From: Lysinibacillus odysseyi
GTDB taxonomy: Bacteria > Bacillota > Bacilli > Bacillales_A > Planococcaceae
Direction: 5' to 3'
Length of the DNA: 64,000 nt
Assembly: GCA_014595895.1 (NCBI GenBank)
Contig: JABUKB010000001.1
Coordinates: 186,001 to 250,000, forward strand
The position numbers were made by a program, and so were the translations under genes. This document shows positions 40,549 to 63,653 of the stretch, one piece after another. Position 1 is the first letter of the stretch. Each line of letters opens with the position of its first letter. Below the pieces are notes generated by a model. It did no database searches. It saw only the letters and a program-made list of their open reading frames with translations, and was not told the origin of the DNA.

Positions 40549-41610
40549 ATGAGGGCACTTTTTCGAATATTAATTATAGCTACAGGTGTTGGTATTTTCC
40601 TTTACTATACAACTGTTGAAGAGCCAAATGTACCGTTAGAAGGTCCCAATACGCCTCAGCCAGCTATTCCAACAGAGGATGTTTATATCAATGATTATCA
40701 AGAAGTATTTCCGGATCCCCAGCAAGGATTGTCGTTGTTAATTGGGCAGTCAAGTAAAAAGGTATTGGCACAGTATGGGGAGCCTTCTCGTAGAGATATA
40801 GGTTCTTATGGCAATGAATGGTGGATTTATGATATGGGGAAAGTGATGATTAGTATAGACAATAATAAAGTGAATGAAGTCTATACGAATGCCGAGAATT
40901 CAGATATTAGTCCTTATAAAATAGCACAATCTATTGAGGATGTGTATCGTATAACGAGCTTTAATTCAGAGGTATCTGTTACATTAGGCGAGAATGTATA
41001 CATTTTTGAGATGGGCGAACAGGATATGAGGCAGCGTCTGCTTGTGCAATTTGATTCAGTCTATGCGCAACTATACTTAGATGAAGAGCGTGGAGTATTA
41101 GCAGGCATTCGTTTTTTAGACGGAAAAACGCTTGTAATCCATCAGCCTTATGGAATGCAATATATGGGTGAACTTCTTGAAAGAAAGCCCTTATCTTCTA
41201 GCAATCAACTTGCCTTGAATAAAATGAGTGCCCTTCAGTTGTCCACCTTGGTAAATAAGTTTAGAAGGCAGTACGGTTTAGCAGAATTGGGTAGGCTTGA
41301 GACGTTAGATGCTTTAGCAATGGCTCACAGTGAAGATATGTTTTTAAAGCAATATATGTCACATGAGTCTCCAACATCTGGTTCGCTCGAGAAACGCTTG
41401 CAGGCAGAGGGCATTGAGTACAAACAGGCTAATGAAAATATTGCTATGGCTTATTTTGATGCGATTGAAGCAGTACATGGTTTATTGAATTCGACAGAGC
41501 ATCGCAAGCATATGTTAAGCGAGGATTATACACATATGGGGACAGGTGTTTATTATGATTATTATACCCAAATATTTATTGAGCAACAGCAAACGGTAGA
41601 GAGCAAGTAG
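40549..41610 (+). CDS. ylbC: Exported CAP/SCP-domain protein (YlbC-like)
   Basis: This 353-residue protein has an N-terminal hydrophobic segment (about 4-22, signal or anchor), a CAP-associated N-terminal domain (about 60-200, with IGQSSKKVLAQYGEPSR) and a C-terminal CAP/SCP1 domain (about 225-345). The CAP domain has NKFRRQYGLAEL, AMAHSEDMF, MSHESPTSG and ANENIAMAYFD. Bacterial CAP proteins of this type are extracytoplasmic and often sporulation-linked, and their biochemical role is unknown. The position matches ylbC. GGAGAGG precedes the ATG. Confidence 0.88.
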   Translation: MRALFRILIIATGVGIFLYYTTVEEPNVPLEGPNTPQPAIPTEDVYINDYQEVFPDPQQGLSLLIGQSSKKVLAQYGEPSRRDIGSYGNEWWIYDMGKVMISIDNNKVNEVYTNAENSDISPYKIAQSIEDVYRITSFNSEVSVTLGENVYIFEMGEQDMRQRLLVQFDSVYAQLYLDEERGVLAGIRFLDGKTLVIHQPYGMQYMGELLERKPLSSSNQLALNKMSALQLSTLVNKFRRQYGLAELGRLETLDALAMAHSEDMFLKQYMSHESPTSGSLEKRLQAEGIEYKQANENIAMAYFDAIEAVHGLLNSTEHRKHMLSEDYTHMGTGVYYDYYTQIFIEQQQTVESK

Positions 41611-41825
41611 TAGCAGCTTTTTACCGTTTTTTCTATTTTGAGTGAGAATTTTTAATATTGGCGAAGAAATAGCTTCGTATCTACAGATATTGATAGAAAA
41701 GGCATTGTTACATAATATGACGTTGGCTTCTTTCTTTTTAACTATGCGGTTTCTTCTTGTGTTCATGCATATGCCATTTAGCACTTTTGGGCATTCGACA
41801 TATAGTAGGAACAGGAGGGAAGTCG

Positions 41826-43310
41826 ATGCAATTGTCTGAGCTACTGTCTGACTGGCCCTGTTTAGTGAAAGGCTCTATTCGAGTGGATGTCTTGCGCATG
41901 CAAGATGTTGCCCAACAAGTAGTGCAAGGGGACGTTTTTATAGCGCGCAAAGGAAGAAATAGCGATGGGAAGAAGTGGATAGACCAAGCGATAGCGAATG
42001 GAGCCAGCGTTATTGTAGTTGACGATGAAAAGTTTTTTGATCGTACACGTTTACCAGTCCCGATTGTCTGGGTGCCTAATTGTCAAACGTTTGATGCGAT
42101 GGCCAATGCGAAACTATGCGGCAATCCCGCAGAGGCATTATCCGTCATTGCCATTACAGGAACAAATGGCAAAACGACAGTAAGTCATTTTATCGGTCAA
42201 CTGTTAACTGCCTTGCAACAGCGCACAATGGTCATAGGAACGATTGGAATATATGAAAATAATAATGAAATTCCCGTAGCAGTAGAATCTTTGACAACAT
42301 TAAAACCACAGCACTTGCAACCATTATTGCAGCAAGCTGTGCGAAACAGGATTGACTATGTAGTGTTAGAAGCGTCATCTATGGGGCTGGCGCAATATCG
42401 TCTTGATTCAACCCGGATTGCGTTAGGTATTTATTTGAATTTAAGTGTTGATCATATTGAAGATCATGGTTCCATGACAAAATATAAGTTAGCCAAACAG
42501 CGATTGATGCAATTAAGTGAACAGCTCATTGTGAATCAAGACGATGATTATTGCCGGGGGATTGGCATTCTGTCACGAAAGAAGAAAATGTCATTTAGTT
42601 TGAAAGCAAAGGCCGATTTATCTGTTCAAAAAATAGCTACTGGTCCTTGGCAAACTACATGTTGCCTGTTTTACAAAGAACAACAGGCAGTTGTGACCTT
42701 GCCTGTAGTAGGAGATTATCAGTTAAAAAATGTTGCTGCAGCTGTTTCTGCGCTTCTGATGCTTGGTTTTTCCCTGGCAGAATTAAAGGAGCCCTTAGCG
42801 AACTTATCATTGCCACCAGGGCGCATGCAGCTATTTCCTTATAAAGAACGTATGGTCATCGTGGATTATGCCCATACGGCTGATGCATTGAAGCAATTAT
42901 TAACGGTAGTGAAGGAACAGACAACAGGCAAGATTACGGTCGTGTTTAGTTGTGGAGGAGAAAGGGATCAGGAGAAGCGTAAGGAAATGGGACTTGTCGC
43001 TTCTCAGCTCGCAGATTATATTGTCTTGACGACAGATAACAGCCGCTCAGAAGATCCTGAAAAAATTAATGCCCAAATTAGAGAAGGTTTTTTTGCTCTA
43101 CAACCCTATATAGAGCTATTAGACCGTCCATCAGCTATTGAGCATGCCATTAAGCGAGCACAAGTTGGCGATGCAGTCGTAATCGCAGGAAAAGGACATG
43201 AAACGACTCAAATTATTGGAAACGAGACATACCCTTTTTCGGATATAGCGTATGTAAAAGAGTTACTGGCGTCGCTTGATAACGAAAAAAGTAGCGGTAG
43301 CAGTCGCTAA
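41826..43310 (+). CDS. murE: MurE-like UDP-MurNAc-dipeptide:amino acid ligase, displaced from the mra cluster
   Basis: This 494-residue Mur ligase adds the third amino acid of the peptidoglycan stem. It has an N-terminal MurE-type domain (about 1-100), the ATP motif ITGTNGKTT (110-118), a carbamoylated-Lys region DHGSMTKYKLAKQRL, GRMQ, VDYAHTADAL, and the amino-acid-binding loop D404-N-S-R407-SEDP. Diaminopimelate ligases have DNPR here; this one has Ser for Pro but keeps Arg. The ATG at 41826 follows AGGAGGG by 6 bases. It lies where B. subtilis has ylbD/ylbE. The canonical murE slot after spoVD is empty in this window. Confidence 0.85.
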   Translation: MQLSELLSDWPCLVKGSIRVDVLRMQDVAQQVVQGDVFIARKGRNSDGKKWIDQAIANGASVIVVDDEKFFDRTRLPVPIVWVPNCQTFDAMANAKLCGNPAEALSVIAITGTNGKTTVSHFIGQLLTALQQRTMVIGTIGIYENNNEIPVAVESLTTLKPQHLQPLLQQAVRNRIDYVVLEASSMGLAQYRLDSTRIALGIYLNLSVDHIEDHGSMTKYKLAKQRLMQLSEQLIVNQDDDYCRGIGILSRKKKMSFSLKAKADLSVQKIATGPWQTTCCLFYKEQQAVVTLPVVGDYQLKNVAAAVSALLMLGFSLAELKEPLANLSLPPGRMQLFPYKERMVIVDYAHTADALKQLLTVVKEQTTGKITVVFSCGGERDQEKRKEMGLVASQLADYIVLTTDNSRSEDPEKINAQIREGFFALQPYIELLDRPSAIEHAIKRAQVGDAVVIAGKGHETTQIIGNETYPFSDIAYVKELLASLDNEKSSGSSR

Positions 43311-43760
43311 TTTTTTACCTATTTCATCTTCGATTACACATTCCATCACTAGCATACTGCGGCCCTTATTAATAAAATAGCCTTTTGCAACAAGTTCTTT
43401 ATTTGTTGTTGTAGCAATATAATTGATATTTAAATTGGTTGTCACCACGTTTTTACCTTCTTCGACTGCACGAGAAGCAAGCCCGCCCATTGCGGCATCA
43501 GCAATCGTAGCTAAAATGCCACCGTGCGGCAATTTAATTGTATTGTGAATAACGGGTGTAATGGGGATACGGACAATACTATGATCTGGATAAAAACTCC
43601 CTGTCATATGAAGTGCGGCATTGATATAGCGGCGGTGAATGCCTGTTTGTTTATCGCGGATGCCTTGTAATAAATGCATGAGTACCTCGGTATCCTCCGT
43701 ATCGGCCTCTGTTAAAATCGTCTGGAATAATTGTTCTATTTCTGCTAGTTGGGGCGTCAT
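43263..43760 (-). CDS. Hotdog-fold thioesterase family protein
   Basis: This 165-residue PaaI-like acyl-CoA thioesterase family protein has an N-terminal helical extension (about 1-55) and a hotdog domain with LPHGGILATIADAAMGGLA (the catalytic HGG..D region) and VTTNLNINYIATTT. Its last 48 bases overlap the end of the convergent MurE-like gene, so the two transcripts are antisense at their 3' ends. The substrate is unknown. It has no counterpart at this place in B. subtilis that I know of. Confidence 0.82.
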   Translation of the reverse strand: MTPQLAEIEQLFQTILTEADTEDTEVLMHLLQGIRDKQTGIHRRYINAALHMTGSFYPDHSIVRIPITPVIHNTIKLPHGGILATIADAAMGGLASRAVEEGKNVVTTNLNINYIATTTNKELVAKGYFINKGRSMLVMECVIEDEIGKKLATATATFFVIKRRQ

Positions 43761-43849: not shown

Positions 43850-44302
43850 ATGATTATGACGTCCGAATGGGCTTTTATATTAGATGAAGCAGATGTGCTC
43901 AGCGAAATGATTTTATCGTCGGAGGTAGCGGCAAGGTATCGTGCGGCATATGCTGCAGTATACAGCAACGAAGAACTGGTGGCGCAAATTCGTGCATTTG
44001 GTCGCCTCAAGGAGCAGTACGAAGATGTTCAAAGATTTGGGAAGTATCATCCAGATTATCAAACAATCATGAAGCAAATTAGAAGTGATAAACGTGCGCT
44101 AGATTTAAATGATGATATAGCAGCACTGAAAATAGCGGAAAATGATTACCAGGATTTGTTGGATGAGGTGAGTCTCCTTATTGGTAAATCGGTATCAGAG
44201 GCTGTAAAAGTACCTGTCGATAATCCATTCTTTGCTAGCAATGCAGGTAGCTGCAGTACAGGTGGCTGCGGTTCAGGTGGTAGCTGTGGCTGTTCTGCCT
44301 AA
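43850..44302 (+). CDS. ylbF: YlbF, RNase Y specificity-complex subunit
   Basis: This 150-residue helical protein ends in a Cys/Gly tail (CSTGGCGSGGSCGC). YlbF forms a complex with YmcA and YaaT that carries iron-sulfur clusters. The complex steers RNase Y, affecting competence, biofilm formation and sporulation. The helical DUF964-type core spans about 10-125. GGAG precedes the ATG at 43850 by nine bases. The four tail cysteines fit the known role in cluster binding. Confidence 0.9.
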   Translation: MIMTSEWAFILDEADVLSEMILSSEVAARYRAAYAAVYSNEELVAQIRAFGRLKEQYEDVQRFGKYHPDYQTIMKQIRSDKRALDLNDDIAALKIAENDYQDLLDEVSLLIGKSVSEAVKVPVDNPFFASNAGSCSTGGCGSGGSCGCSA

Positions 44303-61745: not shown

Positions 61746-63653
61746 ATGAAGTGGCGAGTTGGCGAGTCAAAAAGGCTTCGTATATTTATCGCGGCTCTCA
61801 TAGTATATGGGGTCATTGTAGTAGTACGTTTAATGTATATTCAGTTGTGGCAGCATGAGGAACTCACTAAATTAGCAAAAGAAAACTGGGACAGGGAAAT
61901 TCCCTTTCAGGAACAGCGCGGTGATATAGCTGATCGACATGGAGAGGTAATTGTCACGAATGAGCTTGCTCCTACCTTATATTTTATGCGTTCACAAAAT
62001 AAGGATGTGGCTTCTGTAGCCAGACAATTGGCGCCTATTTTAAAAGTAGACGAAGCAAAACTGCTAGAAAAGCTGCAGCGACCAGCTTATTTAACAAAGC
62101 TCGCTCCTGAAGCGAAAAATTTATCAGTAGAGCAAATCACCCAAATCCAGCAACTGCAAATTGATGGGTTATATAGCGGTGTAGACTATGTGCGGACCTA
62201 CCCTTATGGAACACTACTTTCTAGGCTTATCGGGTTTACTGGTTCAGATACGCAAGGGCTTGCGGGAATTGAATATGCCTATGATGATGTGCTGACAGGA
62301 AATGCTTCTGCTATTCGTCTCTTTACAGATGCGCAAGGGAAAAAGATGGAGCAAACAGAGGATGAATGGCGACAAGGGGAAGCGGGTGCTACTGTGGAAC
62401 TAACGGTAGATTTAGCCTTGCAGCAAATCATCGAAAATGAATTGGAACAGGCTATGGTAATGTACGATGCAGATCAAGCATTGGCTTTGGCGATGAACCC
62501 TAAAACAGGTGAAATATTAGGTATAGCTTCTCACCCTACTTATGATCCCGCGCAGTATGCAAGTGTCGACAGTAGTATCTATAATCGAAATTTACCTGTT
62601 TTTATGACGTATGAGCCAGGCTCGACTTTTAAAATTATTACATTGAGTGCGGCCATCGAAGAAAAGGTAGTAGATTTAAAGGATGAGTTTTATGACAAAG
62701 GGTACACAATGGTAGAAGATGCCAGACTACGCTGCTGGAAAAGAGAAGGACATGGGCACCAAAACTTTTTAGAAGTAGTAGAAAATTCCTGCAACCCTGG
62801 CTTTGTCGAATTAGGGAGACGACTAGGGCCGGAGAAATTATTAGCTTATATTCATGATTTTGGCTTTGGTGAAAAGACAGGGTCTACTATTGCTGGGGAA
62901 GCGAGTGGCATTTTATTTAAGCCGGAAGCGTTTGGACCTGTTGAATCGGCTACTACTGCCTTTGGGCAAGGTGTGTCTGTTACACCTATTCAACAAGTGC
63001 AGGCAGTAGCTGCTGTAATCAATGGTGGAACATTGTATGAACCTTATATTGTGTCACGTATTGTCGGCTCGAATGGTAAAGTACTGAAAGAAAATAAACC
63101 TCGCGCCAAAAAACGGGTTGTTAGTGAAGAAACATCTAAAATTGTTCGGGAAGCACTAGAATCGGTTGTGGCAAATGGCTCAGGTCGCCAAGCATACCGT
63201 GATGGGCTACGTGTGGGAGGAAAAACAGGAACAGCGCAAAAGGTCGAAAATGGGCGCTATAAAGATGGCGATTATATTGTATCGTTTATCGGGTTTGCCC
63301 CTGCTAACGATCCTGAAATATTAATTTATGTAGCGGTCGATTCTCCTAAGTCCCATTTACAATTTGGTAGTGTAATAGCGGCCCCGATTGTGGGGCATAT
63401 TTTAGAGGAGGCCGCGCCAATTCTAAAACTGCCTTATGCGACAGATCAATTGGAGAAGAAGTTTGTGTGGGGCGATGAAGAAACAGAGCGTATGCCAAAC
63501 TTTGTGAATATGACAGTCGAGGAAGTAACAAAGCAGTTTTATAATTATCATATTCATTGGTATGGGGATGGCGACCGTATAGAAAGTCAATTGCCGGCAC
63601 CTGGGCAATTAATCAAACAAGATGATGCGATTCATTTATACTTAACAAACTAA
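61746..63653 (+). CDS. spoVD: Sporulation-specific class B penicillin-binding protein SpoVD
   Basis: This 635-residue transpeptidase builds the spore cortex with SpoVE. It has an N-terminal transmembrane helix (about 10-30), a dimerisation domain, a transpeptidase domain with S293-TFK, S348-C-N and K493-T-G, and a single C-terminal PASTA repeat (about 578-635). One PASTA versus two separates it from PBP2B. CGGAGTG precedes the ATG. The next gene is mraY, not murE. Confidence 0.93.
   Translation: MKWRVGESKRLRIFIAALIVYGVIVVVRLMYIQLWQHEELTKLAKENWDREIPFQEQRGDIADRHGEVIVTNELAPTLYFMRSQNKDVASVARQLAPILKVDEAKLLEKLQRPAYLTKLAPEAKNLSVEQITQIQQLQIDGLYSGVDYVRTYPYGTLLSRLIGFTGSDTQGLAGIEYAYDDVLTGNASAIRLFTDAQGKKMEQTEDEWRQGEAGATVELTVDLALQQIIENELEQAMVMYDADQALALAMNPKTGEILGIASHPTYDPAQYASVDSSIYNRNLPVFMTYEPGSTFKIITLSAAIEEKVVDLKDEFYDKGYTMVEDARLRCWKREGHGHQNFLEVVENSCNPGFVELGRRLGPEKLLAYIHDFGFGEKTGSTIAGEASGILFKPEAFGPVESATTAFGQGVSVTPIQQVQAVAAVINGGTLYEPYIVSRIVGSNGKVLKENKPRAKKRVVSEETSKIVREALESVVANGSGRQAYRDGLRVGGKTGTAQKVENGRYKDGDYIVSFIGFAPANDPEILIYVAVDSPKSHLQFGSVIAAPIVGHILEEAAPILKLPYATDQLEKKFVWGDEETERMPNFVNMTVEEVTKQFYNYHIHWYGDGDRIESQLPAPGQLIKQDDAIHLYLTN

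Follow-up and report, generated by a model that had tools for sequence, protein, structure and literature searches.

A second MurE ligase that tracks sporulation across the family of Lysinibacillus odysseyi, a candidate for the cortex-type enzyme

In the window, i.e. the whole 64,000-nucleotide stretch of DNA analysed here, a murE gene (hereafter copy A) occupies positions 41826..43310 of the plus strand, with its ATG at 41826, its stop codon ending at 43310 and an AGGAGGG ribosome-binding site (41813..41819, plus strand) 5' of the start. The encoded protein of 494 aa is a full-length MurE, which scores 419.6 bits against TIGR01085 (cut-off 257.3) and matches all three Mur ligase Pfam domains. 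The Walker ATP-binding motif GTNGKTT (residues 112-118; 42159..42179, plus strand) and the carbamoyl-lysine position K224 (42495..42497, plus strand) are both invariant in 32 homologues, and the DYAHT, GGxRD and GKGHE motifs are intact as well. In the loop that selects the third residue, which reads TTDNSRSEDP, alignment to the MurE of E. coli and S. aureus places the motif DNSR at D404, N405, S406 and R407 (43035..43046, plus strand; contact roles from PMC3829189), with the Asn and Arg of the canonical DNPR retained (N405, R407) and Ser in place of its Pro. The ligase as the first-pass annotation had described it, full length, with intact catalytic and carbamoyl-Lys regions and with DNSR in the amino acid-binding loop, is thus confirmed. 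Of note, a thioesterase-like gene of the minus strand (43263-43760) runs tail to tail into copy A and shares its last 48 bases (43263-43310).

Copy A is preceded by a ylbC-like (CAP-domain) gene (40549..41610) and followed by a ylbF-like gene (43850..44302), both on the plus strand, and both are conserved neighbours. With the genera of the family numbered and g1 being that of the window, the order ylbC - murE-A - ylbF is kept in g1, g14, g16, most of g11, Psychrobacillus and Sporosarcina; ylbF adjoins copy A at every locus with flanks examined and ylbC nearly always does, four loci in g11 having no ylbC next to copy A. The dcw cluster lies at the end of the window, with pbpB, spoVD (61746..63653, plus strand) and then, directly after in the genome, mraY. 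Since the outgroups Fictibacillus, Halalkalibacter and Paenibacillus all have murE between spoVD and mraY, the usual dcw slot of murE is empty here. The earlier designation of the ligase as relocated therefore suits the empty slot and the position between ylbC and ylbF but not the tree, in which the dcw MurE of Bacillaceae does not group with copy A. A derivation of copy A from the dcw gene was considered and found unsupported, the Bacillaceae dcw MurE being 41-44% identical to the other MurE of the genome (hereafter copy B) and 33% identical to copy A.

The first-pass annotation held that a lysine-containing vegetative wall and a diaminopimelate (DAP)-containing cortex require two ligases, and named a genome with this murE alone as its main refutation. 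The genome does not fit that refutation: the whole-genome search for paralogues returned exactly two MurEs, copy A and copy B, together with one MurF and one MurD. Copy B is located on the same contig as copy A (contig 1, 156776-158242), encodes 489 aa with the loop sequence TTDDPRYEEF and is 33% identical to copy A. Its best PDB match is the L-Lys-adding MurE of S. aureus, with 484 bits against 324 for the next best, whereas the top PDB matches of copy A are mostly DAP ligases, with the S. aureus enzyme (4c12) ranking tenth. In a tree of 57 MurEs, copy B joins the S. aureus MurE with a support of 100/100, and copy A falls outside this clade to form a clade of its own (99/94). Besides, copy B is the sole MurE in several genera without sporulation, e.g. 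g7, g9, g10 and g17, and by family logic it can thus be taken as the lysine ligase.

Regarding the substrate loop, the motif was aligned for 76 copy-A and 71 copy-B sequences. Copy A conforms to D-N-[PASC]-R, with Asn in 75 of the 76 sequences, Arg in all 76 and Pro in 58, relatives showing DNPR, DNAR, DNSR or DNCR at the site of the window's DNSR; copy B reads DDPR in 71/71. Within the DNPR motif of the M. tuberculosis and E. coli enzymes, Asn and Arg bind the distal carboxylate of DAP, and Asp holds its distal amino group (PMC3829189). The reading of DNSR as lying between the DAP and the lysine patterns does not hold up, as the change from Pro to Ser affects the third residue, which is outside both contacts with the DAP carboxylate and which can be Pro, Ala, Ser or Cys in relatives; it thus does not mark a step on the way to lysine. 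Neither is Pro treated here as essential to a DAP ligase, given that it makes no substrate contact and that P408A was the most active of the MurE loop mutants in S. aureus (PMC3829189). On the aligned sequences, what tells the two copies apart is the second position of the motif, Asn in copy A and Asp in copy B: both known DAP-carboxylate contact residues are kept across the copy-A clade and copy B has lost the Asn. The retention of Arg, put forward initially as the discriminating feature, was rejected because the DDPR of all 71 copy-B sequences also has it. As Arg is found in both copies and as changing DNPA to DNPR in S. aureus gives no DAP activity (PMC3829189), specificity cannot be established from the motif by itself. 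DNSR is also seen in the MurE of a contig labelled Bifidobacterium breve (L203), which counts against the reading proposed below for copy A.

The distribution of copy A was surveyed in 250 genomes of the family of the window organism, in which sporulation was predicted from SpoIVA as the only marker. Genus names were obtained from 100% matches to plasmid contigs for g5 (Psychrobacillus, P. glaciei), g8 (Planococcus, P. kocurii), g12 (Paenisporosarcina, P. antarctica) and g15 (Lysinibacillus, L. irui), g13 including P. lenghuensis by the same means, and g3 was named Sporosarcina from the tree position of S. highlanderae. The allusion of the first-pass annotation to Lysinibacillus-type organisms is accordingly right for the family but not for the genus, g1 being separate from g15. 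SpoIVA was matched in 186 of the 250 genomes and had no match in 64. Six genera (g7, g8, g9, g10, g13 and g17), amounting to 64 genomes, gave no copy-A match, their best matches (1e-54 to 1e-67) being at the level of copy B; since the SpoIVA-positive list holds none of these genera and the total is 64, they are the SpoIVA-negative genomes. Conversely, copy A is present in 182/182 genomes with an intact SpoIVA, i.e. the SpoIVA-positive ones outside genus g2, including 13 Sporosarcina genomes that at first seemed to lack it and in which a profile search found it, mostly aligned in two pieces. In genus g2 (4 genomes), the SpoIVA matches are weak or broken-looking in three, and copy A is absent in three and strongly diverged in the fourth. 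This diverged copy (L169, genome G020), of 429 aa, still has CATATAGTA 30 bp upstream. About 4-6 independent losses of copy A underlie the correlation with SpoIVA: the copy-B tree gives 6 changes, with 4 independent contrasts when well-supported branches are counted and 6 when every branch is; all of them agree in direction, but a sign test on the four supported contrasts is not significant (p 0.125). The weight of the argument therefore lies in the combination of co-occurrence with the promoter.

Immediately upstream of copy A, the window carries CATATAGTA (41799..41807, plus strand), a -10 box of the mother-cell (sigma-E/K) type, preceded at 14 bp by a -35-like element, TTAGCAC (41778..41784, plus strand), which was recognised by phylogenetic footprinting and at the site of which relatives have GTGTCA or GTGACA. 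CATAnnnTA is the -10 sequence of sigma-K and CATACnnT that of sigma-E, both of which are mother-cell sigma factors. When upstream regions were aligned genus by genus, a single conserved block emerged before copy A, namely approximately GTG[A/T]CA, a spacer of 14-17 bp, and CATAnnnTA or CATACGAT. Within 100 bp upstream, CATAnnnTA occurs before 65 of 77 copy-A genes, 1 of 71 copy-B genes and none of 22 other MurE genes, for an expectation of about 3/77 in shuffled copy-A upstream regions; when CATAnnnTA or CATACGATG is allowed and the search extended up to 180 bp where the sequence permitted it, the box precedes 72 of 76 copy-A genes and is represented in each of the 12 genera. The same class of -10 box is present in about 12 of 20 spoIVA upstream regions of the family, for which start codons were only roughly placed. 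A scan with the strict B. subtilis sigma-E consensus found little in g1, g11 and g14, where the box emerged only on alignment, and a genome-wide search with a strict -35/-10 pair found nothing. A looser pair gave few matches per genome, in several genomes no more than in the reversed control, and recovered no wider regulon; no regulon is consequently claimed, and the promoter is assigned to the mother-cell type rather than to sigma-E or sigma-K specifically.

According to published wall analyses, Planococcus, which is non-sporing, has L-Lys-D-Glu, Paenisporosarcina L-Lys-D-Asp, Sporosarcina L-Lys-Gly-D-Glu and Lysinibacillus Lys-Asp, and Psychrobacillus species contain ornithine (jointly PMC7294307, PMC5786688, PMC6971209 and the title of a reference cited in PMC11376405). 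Copy B is missing from 24 of the 250 genomes, namely 19 Psychrobacillus, 4 of g2 and G183. Each of the 19 Psychrobacillus genomes carries copy A, as does G183, and nearly all of the B-less genomes still predicted to sporulate keep it. Copy A thus tracks sporulation and not vegetative wall chemistry. Of the two copies, Planococcus kocurii has only B and Psychrobacillus glaciei only A. A very divergent third MurE, or C-type (L159, L160, L095, L096, L164 and L165; motifs ATNGKTS, DDHFANSGN and GCQGMDYGA), occurs in exactly the 24 genomes without copy B; in L160 it has neither DNPR nor GKGHE. Psychrobacillus walls containing ornithine, the C-type may be an ornithine-adding ligase. Other MurE-like paralogues, with a DDLN-like motif, occur here and there in g2, Psychrobacillus, Planococcus and g13 (L086, L088, L093, L161, L166-L168, L170 and L172-L174). 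Two MurE-like proteins of Planococcus and g13 (L171 and L175) have DHPG at the motif, lack GKGHE and probably act on a different substrate.

Taken together, a cortex-type ligase is the best explanation for copy A, as its presence tracks sporulation, its promoter is of the mother-cell type and its position in the tree is apart from the lysine clade. The candidate cortex ligase of the first-pass annotation therefore stands as a conclusion, on these grounds and not on that of the Arg, which copy B has too. Copy A is very probably a sporulation-specific, meso-DAP-adding MurE making the cortex precursor, for which we infer DAP specificity, timing and compartment. In sporulating cells, the mother cell would transcribe it from the sigma-E/sigma-K-type promoter just upstream, and copy B would add L-Lys for the vegetative wall, so that the switch in wall chemistry would consist in which ligase is expressed, the single MurF detected being expected to accept both tripeptides.

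Several other readings have to be weighed against this one. The divergence of copy A, the loss of Pro in some lineages and the empty dcw slot could all be those of the ancestral DAP ligase of the vegetative wall, a remnant from before the change to lysine that drifts without any present role. This is hardly credible for a gene kept in 182 genomes with a conserved promoter and lost exactly where SpoIVA is lost. Moreover, comparisons of close species give a dN/dS of 0.02-0.10 for copy A, just slightly higher than for copy B, and these substitution rates place copy A under strong purifying selection; since the DNAR and DNSR lineages are included in this range, these variants are maintained as working enzymes. 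It is also very unlikely that copy A supplies a precursor for the forespore, the germ-cell wall or some spore structure other than the cortex; co-occurrence with sporulation certainly names no layer, but CATAnnnTA belongs to the mother-cell class, and sigma-E in the mother cell controls the cortex genes of B. subtilis (PMC3533761).

A copy A that is sporulation-specific and yet adds L-Lys, or is relaxed enough to add both Lys and DAP, would merely provide extra precursor in the mother cell and leave the chemistry unchanged. That specificity is not settled by the residues of the motif (PMC3829189), that Arg is found in copy B too and that a second, mother-cell-only enzyme could serve dosage all speak for it. 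We nonetheless consider it unlikely, as the Asn and Arg contacts are kept in essentially all copy-A proteins while copy B has lost the Asn, as copy A groups outside the L-Lys clade and as Psychrobacillus, where copy B is missing, retains it. The separate Lys- and DAP-adding activities reported for Bacillus sphaericus also argue against it. Beyond the DAP-adding cortex ligase itself, a wider proposal, the chances of which we judge evenly balanced, is that the whole family keeps a mother-cell MurE so that the cortex would always have diaminopimelate, whatever the vegetative wall uses; the lysine genera would pair copy A with copy B, the B-less genomes would have the C-type as ornithine ligase, and the third residue would be fixed in the spore wall and free to change in the cell wall.

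In the 1970s, Linnett and Tipper reportedly described separate Lys-adding and DAP-adding activities in Bacillus sphaericus, with different ones in growth and in sporulation. Our literature search found no paper assigning a spore-specific murE gene. The novelty seems to lie in the gene itself, in its promoter and in the way it co-occurs with sporulation throughout the family; the two-enzyme switch was reportedly described long ago by biochemical means in B. sphaericus. If copy A is the cortex-type ligase, a gene would be assigned to this activity, and the old puzzle of a cortex that retains diaminopimelate where the cell wall lacks it would become a simple genetic question. It would also provide, within one cell, a natural pair of MurEs for the choice between Lys and DAP, which the structure and mutants of the S. 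aureus enzyme left open (PMC3829189). Besides, within the family of the window organism, sporulation can be read cleanly from a genome by the presence of copy A.

Compared with meso-DAP-adding MurE (E. coli b0085 and the dcw murE of Bacillaceae), copy A shares the three-domain Mur ligase architecture, the Walker motif, the carbamoyl-Lys and the DN-x-R contacts, but it is only about 31-34% identical to them, lies at the ylbC-ylbF locus instead of dcw, is a second copy in its genome, has Ser for the Pro of DNPR and is preceded by a sporulation-type promoter. With L-Lys-adding MurE (S. aureus PDB 4c12 and copy B, the latter in the same genome), it has in common the fold and the type of reaction; it differs by its position outside the Lys clade and by DNSR instead of DNPA or DDPR, and copy B for its part has no mother-cell -10 box. 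Like SpoVD and other sporulation-specific peptidoglycan enzymes, copy A would be dedicated to sporulation, controlled by the mother cell and paralogous to a vegetative wall enzyme; unlike them, it would act in the cytoplasm on the precursor and change the chemistry rather than the assembly. As for the activities reported for B. sphaericus, they follow the very two-enzyme logic proposed here, except that they were measured in extracts and had no gene assigned in the literature searched.
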